Shown here one piece after another: positions 4,322 through 35,286 of a stretch of 45,624 nucleotides of DNA. The notes below the pieces were generated by a model, which had not been told where the DNA came from, ran no database searches, and worked only from the letters and a program-made list of their open reading frames with translations. Each line of letters opens with the position of its first letter. Positions within the stretch are counted from its first letter, which is position 1. A program made the position numbers and the translations under genes. The stretch is from positions 1-45,624 of the forward strand of contig JAQWZU010000065.1 of NCBI GenBank assembly GCA_029253285.1, written 5' to 3'. This DNA comes from Akkermansiaceae bacterium (GTDB lineage Bacteria > Verrucomicrobiota > Verrucomicrobiia > Verrucomicrobiales > Akkermansiaceae).

Positions 4322-5705
4322 CACTTTCAGAGGGCATCCATTTGCGGAGGGTGGGAAGGGAAACGCCCAAGAGACGGGCTGCTTCCTTGGGATCGTCTTC
4401 CGATTGGTCGAGGGCGTGGCGAATCAACTCGTTTCGAGCAAAGCTCAAGGCACTTTGTCCGTTTTTTGCTGACGATTCGATGAGGACAGCAAGAGCGTCA
4501 GTTAGAGTCCCTCCACCGGTTGAGGGGCCTCGTCCGAGAGGGATGTCTTCAGGAAGAAGAATGTCATTAAGTGAGAGCGCGCAGGCCCGGGCCATGGTGT
4601 TCTCGAGTTCGCGGACATTGCCGGGCCAATTGTGTTTTTGAAGATGCTCGACAGCTTCGCCGGTTAGCCGCATCCGGGCAGTGCCGTTTTTTCGTGCGAT
4701 GCGATCAAGGAAAAACTCGGCCAGGATTCCAATGTCTTCCTGTCTCTCTCTCAATGAAGGAAGGGAGACTTCAACGACATTTAAGCGGTAATACAGGTCT
4801 TCACGGAACCGTCCGGCGGAGACTTCGGAAGCGAGATCCTTGTTGGTCGCAGTGACGATGCGGACGTCGCTTTTGAGAACCTCGTTGCTTCCAACCCGGG
4901 AGTAGGTGCCATCTTGAAGGACGCGCAGAAGCTTCACTTGAACACTTGGGGGCAGATCCCCGACTTCATCGAGAAAGAGTGTGCTTTCGTGGCAATCCTC
5001 GAAGCGACCCGGGCGTCTGGCGATCGCGCCGGTGAAGGAACCTTTCTCGTGCCCGAAGAGTTCGGATTCCAGCAGATTGTCCGGGATGGCTCCGCAGTTA
5101 ATCACGAGCATCTCCTTCTTTCGGCGCGGGCTGTATTCGTGCACCGAGCGGGCGATGAGTTCCTTGCCGGTGCCGCTTTCGCCGCTTACTAAAACCGGAG
5201 CGTCGGAGCGGGCAACACGGCCGACGATTTTCATCACGTCCTGAAGCGGGCGGGAAACACCGACGATGGAGGTTTTGCCAACCAAGCCCGGAAGCTCACG
5301 GGAAGAGGGGCCCAGTTCACGTCGTTGATCGATGGTTTGGAGACCTGACTCGACGATTTTTCTGAGTTCGAATCCGACAGACTCTTTTCTGAGAACATCG
5401 TGGGCCCCTTTTTGGGTCGCTTCGATGATCTGAATCGTGGAGGGAGACACCGCGGTCAACATCACGATGGTGTCCGGAGAGCGCGCGCGTATCTTGGTGA
5501 GAAGTTCCACTCCGTCGAATGGGTCCAATTTGATATCGGAGATGACGAGATCGACGGAAATTTTCTCGATTACCTTGAGCGCTTTGTCTGCACTATCACA
5601 GCGGAGGATTTTCAACCCGTCGGCAGCAAGGTGCTTTGTCGCCCAATCCAGATAGTCATGATCAGGATCGACCAGAAGCAGGGTATTTTCCGGGGTGTCG
5701 CTCAA
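4314..5705 (-). CDS. sigma-54-dependent response regulator (NtrC family)
   Basis: 463 aa with three domains. The receiver (about residues 1-120) has acidic residues near VDPDHD, phospho-acceptor Asp57 (VISDIKL) and conserved Lys107. The AAA+ domain (about 147-385) has Walker A GESGTGKE (175-182), GSFTGA (222-227; the GAFTGA loop that contacts sigma-54, with Ser for Ala) and Walker B LFLDEVGD. A Fis-type helix-turn-helix is at the C-terminus (EAARLLGVSLPTLRKW). It activates sigma-54 promoters upon phosphorylation. The start is TTG (no ATG fits the receiver). No histidine kinase or rpoN is nearby, so it is an orphan here. It sits between uppS (19 bp) and upp (8-bp overlap). Its regulon cannot be inferred. 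Confidence 0.93.
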   Translation of the reverse strand: MSDTPENTLLLVDPDHDYLDWATKHLAADGLKILRCDSADKALKVIEKISVDLVISDIKLDPFDGVELLTKIRARSPDTIVMLTAVSPSTIQIIEATQKGAHDVLRKESVGFELRKIVESGLQTIDQRRELGPSSRELPGLVGKTSIVGVSRPLQDVMKIVGRVARSDAPVLVSGESGTGKELIARSVHEYSPRRKKEMLVINCGAIPDNLLESELFGHEKGSFTGAIARRPGRFEDCHESTLFLDEVGDLPPSVQVKLLRVLQDGTYSRVGSNEVLKSDVRIVTATNKDLASEVSAGRFREDLYYRLNVVEVSLPSLRERQEDIGILAEFFLDRIARKNGTARMRLTGEAVEHLQKHNWPGNVRELENTMARACALSLNDILLPEDIPLGRGPSTGGGTLTDALAVLIESSAKNGQSALSFARNELIRHALDQSEDDPKEAARLLGVSLPTLRKWMPSESDV

Positions 5706-5724
5706 ATGGAAGTGGGGCTGGGCT

Positions 5725-6441
5725 CTAAACTCTCCCGAAGCGGCGGTGACGGCGAGAATAATTTTCGACGGCTTCCTGGAAGTCGCTCTTTCGGAAGTCG
5801 GGCCAGTTCTTCGAAGAAATAAAGATTTCGGCGTAGCTCAGCTGCCACAGGAGGAAGTTGGAAAGTCGGAATTCGCCGGAAGTTCGGATAAGGAGATCGG
5901 GATCGGGGAACTCGGCAGTGTCGAGGTGTTTGGAGATTGTGTCATTATCGATATCATCCGGAGAAAGCTCGCCTGATTGGACCTTGAGCGCGATCTGGCG
6001 GCTCGCGTCAGCGATTTCTTCCCGGCTGCCGTAGGAAAGAGCGAGGATCAAGGTGAGAGCTTTGTTATCCTTGGTTTCCTCGATGACTTTGTTGAGTTCG
6101 TCCCGGCAGGAGTCCGGAAGCAGATCCGTCCTTCCGATGGCGGTGAGACGTACGCCTTTTTTGGCGATCTCGCGCGCCTTTGTCTTCAGGAAACGCTCGA
6201 GCAATTTCATCAAGGCGTCGACCTCGGCTTTGGGGCGATTCCAGTTTTCGGATGAGAAGGCATAGAGTGTGAGAAACTCGACCCCGGCCTCGTTGCAATA
6301 GTCCACCGCTTCTCGAACCGCTTCCGCACCGGCGCGATGTCCGGCTTTTCGTGGGAGTCCCCGGGATTTAGCCCAGCGTCCGTTGCCGTCCATAATGACA
6401 GCCAGATGGCGGGGGATATCGTTTGGCGAGTCGTCGCCCAT
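5725..6441 (-). CDS. uppS: isoprenyl transferase (undecaprenyl diphosphate synthase)
   Basis: cis-Prenyltransferase that condenses IPP onto farnesyl diphosphate to make undecaprenyl diphosphate, the lipid carrier for peptidoglycan and other envelope polymers; acts at the inner face of the membrane. 238 aa, normal length. Signature motifs are complete: HLAVIMDGNGRWA with catalytic Asp18, LYAFSSENWNRP, and the C-terminal DLLIRTSGEFRLSNFLLWQ split across two IPP-binding elements. It lies 18 bp downstream of purA on the same strand. Unlike many bacteria, cdsA does not follow; a response regulator does. Confidence 0.95.
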   Translation of the reverse strand: MGDDSPNDIPRHLAVIMDGNGRWAKSRGLPRKAGHRAGAEAVREAVDYCNEAGVEFLTLYAFSSENWNRPKAEVDALMKLLERFLKTKAREIAKKGVRLTAIGRTDLLPDSCRDELNKVIEETKDNKALTLILALSYGSREEIADASRQIALKVQSGELSPDDIDNDTISKHLDTAEFPDPDLLIRTSGEFRLSNFLLWQLSYAEIFISSKNWPDFRKSDFQEAVENYSRRHRRFGRV

Positions 6442-6459
6442 ATCGGTTGAGGTAAGTCG

Positions 6460-8891
<2,432 letters not shown>

Positions 8892-33061: not shown

Positions 33062-33442
33062 TTAGCCTTCGAGGATATACGGCTTGTGTGGTAAAGGATC
33101 TTCGCCACACAGGATGCAGATCTTATTGGAGGAGTTGCAATTTTCCCCACAGCGTTGGCAGGCAAAAATCAGTTGGCTGATTTCGCCATCAACTTTGCCG
33201 TCCCGGCTGTCAACTCCGGTAACCTTGGCGCGGAGTTCAGAGTCGCTTAGACCGATTTGCCCGCGGAGCCCCCCCCACATCGACTGGCAAAGAAAAGTTA
33301 AGTGTTCGATTTGCCTTTGATGGGTAAGAAGTTCCCGGGCAACAATTTCGGAATGTCTGAAAGGTTTCTCACTGTCCTCACGGGCGCTGGAAAGGAGCCA
33401 ACCTTCCCTTTGATTTTGGGTGCCGCTGATGAACTCGAACAT
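33062..33442 (-). CDS. small zinc-ribbon protein of unknown function
   Basis: 126 aa, predicted soluble. The C-terminal part has a C-x2-C-x3-C-x6-C-x2-C arrangement (ACQRCGENC and ICILCGED), fitting a zinc ribbon. The N-terminal 60 residues look helical (SEIVARELLTHQRQIEHLTF). No family recognised. It lies between the POT transporter gene (5 bp) and tatD (9 bp), all on the minus strand, probably one transcript. ATG at 33442 with no Shine-Dalgarno. Confidence 0.6.
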   Translation of the reverse strand: MFEFISGTQNQREGWLLSSAREDSEKPFRHSEIVARELLTHQRQIEHLTFLCQSMWGGLRGQIGLSDSELRAKVTGVDSRDGKVDGEISQLIFACQRCGENCNSSNKICILCGEDPLPHKPYILEG

Positions 33443-33447
33443 TATTG

Positions 33448-35286
33448 TTAACTCTGAAGGTAAGTCTTCTCTTTGCTAGAGATTGCATATGGCACGAAGA
33501 GGATCGCCGCAGCGAGCATTAGGCCTGTGAAAAACCAATAGTAGGCCGGGCCTTCCAACTTCGGTTGCCCTCCGGTATAGGCAGTAGTTGAGATGGGCGA
33601 ATCTGAATCAGAGGCTTTATCAGTCACGCCAAGCAGTTCCTTGCGTTTTTCCAGCCAAGTTTTCTTGGATGATTTTTCTTCGGAAGGAAGAGTTTTATCT
33701 GGGCCTTCGATGATATAGCCAAGGTCCCATTTGGTCCCTTGTTCTTTGTCCGGACCAATGCTGGTGATGCGAGCGGTTCGAGAGGCAAGTCGAGTATAAG
33801 TGATCTGAGATCCCCATTTGTCGGTGAAGCCAGAAAGTAGTGACTGAGCTTCTTCAGTAGTTGGTAAAACAAGATCATTTTCTTCAGCCCAAGAGGTGAT
33901 GGCTCTCGTTGCCTGATCGATTTTTTCTTGGTCAGGGAGTTGTCGTTTGGTTGTCTTTCCCTCTTTCCGGGTGATGACGATATCGTCGCCGCTACCAATT
34001 TTCTCATCAAATCCCGGGTGAGTGTGCTCTCCGTCTCCGAGTTCCTCTGCAAAAGCAACGACGGGATCGTCGACTTGAATCACCGAGTTTACAAACTCGG
34101 TGATTTGGTTTCCGAAAGATACCGAAAGTAAAAAGATCGCCATGATGAGCGATTTCATGTTTCGAGGAGCTTGAGTGTAAGAATACTCAAGACAAACGAT
34201 GGAAACCATCACTTCAGCAGCTGTGAGAATCAAGTAAGCAAGAAATTGCCATCCGATATTTGGTGTGTGTCCTTCAGAAATTGAAACCTGAATAAGGGCA
34301 ATGATCGCGAATGAAATAACGGTAATAAAGAGGCCGGCCCCGATCTTCCGGAGGGAAGTAAGCTTAATGTATTTCCCAAGTGTTGGGTAAATAACAAAGG
34401 TGAATAGCGGAACGAGCGTGAGAATGAGGACGGAGTTGATCGATTGAATTTGTGAGGGGAGCCAATCAATGACGAGGTGTCGGTCCATGTCCTGAGATTG
34501 AAAAATCCAGGAAGATCCAGTCTGGTCAAAAAGTGCCCAAAAGAATGCTACGAAGAAATAGAGAGGAAGAAGACGAAGGATGACTCCCAGGCCTTCCTTG
34601 GAGCAAAGCTCTCTCTTGAATTTTTCGCGATCAGGTTGGACATGGATAAATTTCCTCCGACCCAACCAGAAGAAGACAGTGGCCAGAGCCATAAGAATAC
34701 CCGGGATGCCAAAGGCTACATGGGGGCCGTGCCATTCCAAGAGCCAAGGAGTGGCAAGCATGGACATGAATGCTCCAAGATTGATAGAAAAATAGAACCA
34801 ATTGAAAACTTTGGTGAGTAGGTGTTGATTCGACTTGCCGAACTGATCTCCGACATGAGCTGAGACGCAGGGTTTGATCCCGCCTGATCCCAGACAAATC
34901 AGGGCAAGTCCTGCAAAAAGCCACCAACCTGCGGAGCCAGTAATTCCCATCAGGGCGAGGCAGGCATGTCCGACGCAATAGACAATGCTTAGCCAAATAA
35001 TGACTCGATACTTACCGAAAAAGAAGTCAGCCAATAGAGCGCCTAAGAAAGGCGTTGCATAAACCCACTTGTTAAACTTGTGGTAATTTTCACTAGCGAC
35101 AACTTCGGACATCTGCTCGGTCGGGGCATCGCCCATCAGCCAGAGATACTGCACCATAAAGATGGAGAGGATTGCTTTCATTCCGTAGAATGAAAATCGC
35201 TCGGCGGCTTCGTTGGCGATAATGTAAGGAATGCCTCCCGGCATTCCTTCGGTGTCGGTCGGGGTGGAGCGGTATTCTGAACTCAA
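33448..35286 (-). CDS. POT-family proton-dependent oligopeptide transporter with large periplasmic loop
   Basis: 612 aa from a TTG at 35286; an internal Met at residue 15 would also keep the core. The POT motif EAAERFSFYG (26-35; proton-coupling ExxER) and FNWFYFSINLGAF (161-173) identify the family, which imports di- and tripeptides with H+ at the inner membrane. Between the penultimate helix (about 378-400) and the last helix (about 580-601) lies a hydrophilic insert of about 175 residues absent in ordinary POT proteins. Part of it (about 475-530) resembles the C-terminal half of GspG pseudopilins. With an even number of helices and N-in topology, this loop faces the periplasm. Confidence 0.88.
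   Translation of the reverse strand: MSSEYRSTPTDTEGMPGGIPYIIANEAAERFSFYGMKAILSIFMVQYLWLMGDAPTEQMSEVVASENYHKFNKWVYATPFLGALLADFFFGKYRVIIWLSIVYCVGHACLALMGITGSAGWWLFAGLALICLGSGGIKPCVSAHVGDQFGKSNQHLLTKVFNWFYFSINLGAFMSMLATPWLLEWHGPHVAFGIPGILMALATVFFWLGRRKFIHVQPDREKFKRELCSKEGLGVILRLLPLYFFVAFFWALFDQTGSSWIFQSQDMDRHLVIDWLPSQIQSINSVLILTLVPLFTFVIYPTLGKYIKLTSLRKIGAGLFITVISFAIIALIQVSISEGHTPNIGWQFLAYLILTAAEVMVSIVCLEYSYTQAPRNMKSLIMAIFLLSVSFGNQITEFVNSVIQVDDPVVAFAEELGDGEHTHPGFDEKIGSGDDIVITRKEGKTTKRQLPDQEKIDQATRAITSWAEENDLVLPTTEEAQSLLSGFTDKWGSQITYTRLASRTARITSIGPDKEQGTKWDLGYIIEGPDKTLPSEEKSSKKTWLEKRKELLGVTDKASDSDSPISTTAYTGGQPKLEGPAYYWFFTGLMLAAAILFVPYAISSKEKTYLQS

Follow-up and report, generated by a model that had tools for sequence, protein, structure and literature searches.

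Does the peptide transporter encoded in this stretch of Akkermansiaceae DNA carry a pilin-like domain in its last periplasmic loop and, if it does, what could such a domain be doing there? The window, by which we mean the whole 45,624-nucleotide stretch that was analyzed, holds on its minus strand a POT-family gene for which a preliminary description had proposed a hydrophilic insert before the last helix (residues about 403-578) that resembles the C-terminal half of the pseudopilin GspG. The gene and its main divisions are as follows.

33448..35286, minus strand: POT/PTR2 peptide transporter gene, 612 amino acids, start codon TTG, stop codon at 33448-33450
34078..35286, minus strand: transport core TM1-TM11, residues 1-403 (AF2 helices; invariant columns in 49 sequences)
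33550..34077, minus strand: insert between TM11 and TM12, residues 404-579 (AF2 secondary structure and alignment with insert-less relatives; periplasmic by POT topology)
33478..33549, minus strand: TM12, residues 580-603 (AF2)

The transporter itself is readily recognized. Six of the seven near relatives inspected (L053, L054, L055, L057, L059, and L060; not L061) also have TTG where their sequence aligns with the first codon, and Pfam hmmscan matches the 612-residue protein to PTR2 (PF00854) with an E value of 3.5e-79 and 266.9 bits against a curated cut-off of 27. The closest solved structures by phmmer were PepTSo (2xut, 8.2e-99) and 6ei3, and the whole protein gave a fold match to 4uvm (E 8.8e-24); these POTs share its core. 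Both the ExxERF motif in TM1 (E26, E29, R30, and F31) and the TM4 lysine (K138) expected of the POT fold are present, and these residues, together with E358 and E367, are invariant in the 49 aligned sequences. We take the ExxERF residues and K138 to have in this protein the roles that these motifs have in POT function, and we infer from the sequence that the protein, as a member of the POT family, imports di- and tripeptides together with protons.

We located the insert with a full-length, template-free AF2 model made from a 49-row alignment (mean pLDDT 87, pTM 0.88), which contains twelve long helices. TM11 (helix 375-403) ends at residue 403 and TM12 (helix 580-603) starts at residue 580, in agreement with the limits first proposed. 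The TM11-TM12 loop faces outward in POT topology; consistent with this, TM6-TM7 is the most positive loop apart from the insert loop, with 7 K/R. The insert was present in 45 of the 52 relatives first aligned and absent from seven, namely six Planctomycetota/Oligoflexales homologues and L047, which have only a short linker. Ten insert-less relatives (L037, L038, and L151-L158) have a TM11-TM12 interval of 11-19 residues (13-19 in seven of them, 11-17 in the more distant L156-L158), and nothing in 2xut or 6ei3 is paired with the insert in the phmmer alignments. Of the distant insert-less proteins, L158 (G005:C154) is a second, more distant POT in the window's genus, and L156 (G028:C21) is a POT from one genome of genus g3.

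The comparison with GspG concerns the following elements of the insert.

33976..34017, minus strand: first GxDxxxGTxDD-like loop, residues 424-437, PGFDEKIGSGDDIV (conservation; segment match to the GspG C-terminal loop)
33880..33930, minus strand: helix 453-469, inferred counterpart of the C-terminal half of the pseudopilin helix (AF2; structural alignments)
33835..33867, minus strand: LPTTEEAQSLL, residues 474-484, counterpart of GspG YPTTEQGL (hhalign; marginal alone; P475 in 42/45)
33718..33822, minus strand: DKWGSQITY...ARITSIGPDKEQGTKWDLG, residues 489-523, GspG-like DPWG strand and second acidic loop (hhalign, segment 486-534)

When searched with hmmscan against Pfam and NCBIfam, neither the window protein nor its insert alone matched T2SSG, and thus the GspG-like call rests on the insert family. 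With E values up to 10 allowed, 16 of the 45 family members matched T2SSG, the best of them at 3.9e-6, and every other family was matched by two members at most. When 57 genomes of the order were searched with PF08334, hits above the curated cut-off lay inside POT frames, as identified by their coordinates, in G041 (27.2 bits), G036 (23.5), and G085 (21.8), with three more above it only when counted with neighbouring matches (G040 21.6, G069 21.3, and G053 21.1 bits); a 44-genome search added the POT frame of G035 (21.5 bits). Among nine chosen insert-bearing proteins, hmmscan put only L067 over the T2SSG cut-off (24.4 versus 21 bits), with L068, L070, L073, L065, and L060 below it at 14.1-20.7 bits and no match in the window protein, L061, or L063, nor in the insert-less L047. 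L068 was over the cut-off in one program and just under it in the other. The T2SSG search suggested in the preliminary description thus failed for the window protein and succeeded for part of its family, including several full POT proteins.

Profile comparison carries the relationship further. The 45-row insert profile aligned to 13 GspG proteins in hhalign with 96.9% probability, a score of 67.6, and an E value of 1.7e-10 over 53 columns, whereas the maximum was 23.4 among 200 column-shuffled controls and the reversed profile scored 18.8. Dividing the insert into segments (each with a null of 100) localized this signal: residues 486-534 (45 rows) scored 66.1 at 97.9% (null maximum 17.1), residues 410-452 (40 of the 45 rows) scored 34.6 (null maximum 18.4), the helix with PTTEE (452-488) was marginal at 15.0 (null maximum 13.6), and the tail (534-582) showed no relation to GspG (12.3; null maximum 19.8). 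The sequence relationship is therefore carried mainly by about 37 columns. We found that LPTTEEAQSLL (474-484), DKWGSQITYT (489-498), and ARITSIGPD (505-513), which had been read as following the GspG C-terminal half, hold up at the level of a family profile that beats its shuffled controls. GSGDDIV, which had been likened to the terminal calcium motif of GspG, has its position corrected from 432-438 to 431-437 and lies in the segment 410-452 that matches the GspG loop. A profile search of the PDB placed GspG in the top four rows, but with E values of only 0.03-0.7. In the reverse direction, we searched 145 genomes of the phylum with the insert profile, which recovered the window's gene and, more weakly, matched 29 genomes (4.1e-8 to 9.6e-4). 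Read by eye, all 19 of the loci inspected from this search show a strand that starts with D-x-W and also a G-x-D loop; a simple pattern found a prepilin-like motif in 11 and none in eight. Because the search reaches loci of both kinds, the relatives of the insert comprise filament pseudopilins and short T2SSG-like proteins that are not pilins.

The predicted fold was consistent with this assignment. When residues 401-580 of the full-length model are divided into 18 blocks of ten, 16 have a mean pLDDT of 80-92, the exceptions being 531-540 (48) and 551-560 (63); a model of the insert alone was poorer than the same region in the full-length model (mean pLDDT 74). Foldseek with the insert model returned nothing significant (best E 0.83), and we set aside its listed matches, mostly MreB, PI3-kinases, and ubiquitin E2 enzymes, as none was significant. 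As a structural second look, the top Foldseek chains were re-aligned with VIA-align 2 (993 aligned). Ranks 1-6 were PulG 1t92, GspG 3g20, EpsG 4lw9, 3gn9, a Thermus pilin, and 3fu1 (Z 6.5-6.8, 71-78 residues, rmsd 2.5-3.3; best Z 6.8 over 77-78 residues). Ranks 1-15 were all pilins or pseudopilins with Z 4.6-6.8, values for which, being below 8, the match may reflect a common arrangement, and we accordingly count the result as moderate support. Rank 15, a pilin (Z 4.6), was tied with rank 16, a kinase (Z 4.5); PI3K/VPS34 lipid kinases make up most rows below rank 15 (Z 3.9-4.5), and we took these as a common arrangement. Most of the GspG structural alignments begin at insert-model residue 51, which is residue 450 of the protein. 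The model therefore gives moderate support to a pilin-type alpha/beta fold, and the region that had been marked for structure prediction comes out folded rather than as a disordered loop, with GspG structures as its best structural re-alignments.

The insert and GspG (PF08334; 1t92, 3g20, and 4lw9) thus share a helix, a PTTE-like turn, a DPWG strand, and a GPDxxxxTxxD loop. Unlike GspG, the insert lacks a prepilin leader and an N-terminal assembly helix and sits inside a polytopic transporter: by inspection, neither the N-terminus nor the stretch ahead of the domain has a G-F-[ST]-x-x-E type site, and the domain follows TM11 and a loop instead of an assembly helix. It further differs in having Trp for the first Asp of the terminal DD (40/45), an extra first acidic loop, and a WLxxRK stretch.

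Could the resemblance have arisen without common descent? The acidic GxDGxxGTxDD motif is common in proteins of these phyla, and an unrelated alpha/beta domain that had converged on such loops would account for the missing T2SSG match of the window sequence, for a profile similarity concentrated in about 37 columns, and for the nonsignificant Foldseek result. We consider this very unlikely because the alignment extends to the DPWG strand and to the distance between this strand and the loop, because reverse profile searches reach pseudopilins, and because the 15 best VIA-align 2 rows, obtained with a template-free model, are pilins or pseudopilins. Homology of the insert domain with pseudopilins is, in our assessment, well supported, and we hold with still greater confidence that this is a POT transporter with a GspG-like domain in its TM11-TM12 loop. 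The idea of a GspG-like domain grafted into a transporter is therefore upheld at the level of the insert family.

Two further elements follow the GspG-like part and lead back to the membrane.

33628..33657, minus strand: WLEKRKELLG, residues 544-553 (model helix 544-551), after the GspG-like part (W544 and L545 invariant, 45/45)
33550..33573, minus strand: GGQPKLEG return stretch into TM12, residues 572-579 (G572, G573, L577, and G579 invariant, 45/45)

These six residues and G511 are the seven columns of the insert that are invariant in all 45 rows. The second acidic loop is also strongly conserved (G511 45/45, D513 44/45, T518 43/45, D521 44/45, and W520 40/45), as is R506 (44/45). We mapped onto this loop what we take to be the Asp ligand positions of the GspG C-terminal calcium site; by sequence, the loop with D513 and D521 is conserved, while W520 replaces one Asp in 40 of the 45 rows, so that most of them read WD where GspG has its terminal DD. 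The first loop is kept less widely (G425 and D427 in 38/45; D434 and D435 in 35/45) and is missing from five rows of one clade (L075-L079) and from L016. Its segment scored 19.2 against the second acidic loop (null maximum 10.95 of 200), and it may have arisen by duplication or, alternatively, by convergence as an ion-binding loop. Across L053, L054, L055, and L057, the insert diverged 3.6-4.0 times faster than the core (dN 0.133-0.163 versus 0.037-0.044). Whole-insert dN/dS was 0.033, 0.054, and 0.065 in the three computable pairs, rough values with dS near saturation at 2.5-4.0, and the two values for the 453-530 part were higher (0.112 and 0.336); synonymous divergence was saturated for most comparisons. 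The whole-insert ratios point to constraint on the insert.

The architecture is common to many related genomes and not an oddity of one, as the survey of relatives suggested at the outset shows. Of 386 genomes of the order, 288 had some insert-profile match at 1e-3 or better (at most eight candidates were scored per genome, and the rows were read from a table that omits 78 matchless genomes). Strong matches (E <1e-15) occurred only in families f1 (except genus g3), f2, and f6 of the six listed; the listed genomes of f3, f4, and f5 had no match better than 2.0e-6, and the listed g3 genomes had none. Named carriers are a Rubritalea sp. (L018) and Luteolibacter sp. (L015 and L026), as well as, judged by the span of the match, Rubritalea profundi (L048). 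The contig scan for relatives used short patterns of the query and could miss carriers in other phyla. A core-only tree was built from 61 insert-bearing and 16 insert-less rows, excluding L062 (partial) and L157 (divergent). The best tree requires two changes of the insert because the Planctomycetota/Oligoflexales branch sits, with weak support, among insert-bearing rows. A single origin was not rejected (p-AU 0.122) and appeared in 13% of 200 bootstrap trees, or in 28% of those from a smaller tree. The insert was probably gained once, in the ancestor of part of one verrucomicrobial order.

To look for partners, we read 19 transporter loci by eye. A gene that we take to be fabH lies upstream of the transporter in L004 and L005, as in the window, and a presumed TatD-like gene lies downstream in L004, L005, L013, and L020, again as in the window; the flanks differ elsewhere, and no recurring partner gene was found near the transporter in the 19 loci. 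In L012, what is presumably an aminopeptidase-like gene stands two frames downstream on the opposite strand, and none was seen next to the transporter in the other loci. The genome to which the window belongs also encodes a protein that passes the T2SSG cut-off (29.8 bits in the PF08334 search; L081:1435-2043, minus strand; G000:C6:3833-4105), which was found with PF08334 and not with the insert profile. Inspection shows this protein to have a membrane anchor at its N-terminus, and a simple pattern found no prepilin motif in it; a similar T2SSG match occurs in G005 (C2:6558-6845). Five further proteins (L117, L121, L123, L131, and L132) are short and apparently anchored, with a GspG-like domain and no prepilin motif by the same pattern. 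They may form a distinct family and are a possible source of the insert; outside POTs, only one protein matches the insert profile better than L117 does. Like the insert, the stand-alone Verrucomicrobiota proteins L117, L131, L121, and L081 have a GspG-like domain without a prepilin motif; unlike the window protein, they are short, with an apparently single N-terminal anchor by inspection, and are not transporters.

What might the insert do? We tentatively propose, by analogy, that it is an accessory docking domain. The core would import peptides with protons in the usual POT manner, and the insert, sitting in the periplasm beside the peptide entrance, would bring to the transporter a partner such as a peptidase of the periplasm or a component of the envelope. 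A divalent ion in the two acidic loops would possibly keep the insert in shape, and the insert would probably be dispensable for the transport step itself, acting like the unrelated PepT1/PepT2 ectodomain. Taken whole, our best explanation (a POT importer with an inserted GspG-like domain, probably gained once and serving an accessory docking role) has about an even chance of being right. Against it stand the missing T2SSG match of the window protein alone, the nonsignificant Foldseek search and the middling best Z of VIA-align 2, the two changes that the tree needs and the low bootstrap share of a single origin, and the lack of a conserved neighbour pointing to a partner; the faster divergence of the insert also fits a loosely constrained spacer.

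We favour docking over three other roles. The insert could instead be an ion-dependent structural clamp that bridges TM11 and TM12 on the outside and braces or regulates the outward gate, with ion binding setting its stiffness. Both acidic loops are conserved, as this would require, and the invariance of W544, L545, G572, G573, L577, and G579 near the membrane return is what one would expect if the insert touched the core. However, some POT relatives have no insert and solved POTs transport without one, Trp replaces one member of the GspG terminal Asp pair in most rows, and L075-L079 and L016 lack the first loop; we therefore regard a clamp as unlikely. A bolder form of docking, in which a PepT-like capture machine was independently invented, a filament-free pseudopilin fold held a protease or peptide-rich partner at the gate, and the acidic loops served as an ion-sensitive latch, is speculative and in our view also rather unlikely.

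If the domain had simply been inserted in a tolerant loop and kept because it can fold, with no specific role, its faster divergence relative to the core, its variable length, the partial loss of the first loop, and the lack of a conserved neighbour gene would all be expected. Its presence across f1 (except g3), f2, and f6, its invariant residues, and the low, if rough, dN/dS values at dS 2.5-4.0 argue against such neutral decoration, which we hold to be quite unlikely. Finally, pilin-like contacts tying the transporter to type II secretion or type IV pilus assembly, so that import takes place beside secreted proteases, are highly improbable: the known insert genomes among the 44 do have a separate PF08334 match (8.5e-10 or better), but so do genomes with an insert-less POT (G045, G046, G048, G049, and G055; 4.9e-17 or better), so that co-occurrence does not discriminate, and moreover the pilin assembly helix is absent, the likeness is confined to the globular part, and secretion genes were not recognized by eye beside the transporter in the 19 loci.

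The docking role that we favour has its closest parallel in mammals. In PepT1 and PepT2, a folded extracellular domain occupies an extracytoplasmic POT loop (PMC4597091). That domain consists of two immunoglobulin-like lobes between TM9 and TM10, whereas the verrucomicrobial insert is one pilin-like domain between TM11 and TM12; the TM9-TM10 loop of the window protein is seven residues long, with no PepT-type ectodomain. According to the 2015 ectodomain paper, bacterial members of the POT family lack such domains completely (PMC4597091). Contrary to that statement, a set of related bacterial POTs has an ectodomain, of another fold and in another loop. These bacteria thus seem to have equipped their peptide transporter with an accessory domain in a way that parallels the addition of a different one in mammals, and the globular domain of a pseudopilin would here be used outside filaments. 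If the insert docks proteases or envelope structures, it would offer a simple bacterial system for testing the purpose of transporter ectodomains. Our literature search found nothing on GspG/T2SSG in Verrucomicrobia, or on a verrucomicrobial pseudopilin with a peptide transporter.

Several minor observations concern individual frames. A 1038-residue frame in L032 was considered as a fusion and rejected, as the 400 residues at its upstream end look, by inspection, like fabH translated in a wrong frame. An apparent frameshift divides the POT homologue of Rubritalea profundi (L048, about 5001-6868) into open frames of 299 and 418 amino acids, and those of L045 and L035 are also split. In the window, a 126-residue frame (33062-33442, minus strand) with cysteine pairs near its end (ACQRCGENC and CILCG) lies just downstream of the transporter, ahead of the TatD-like gene.
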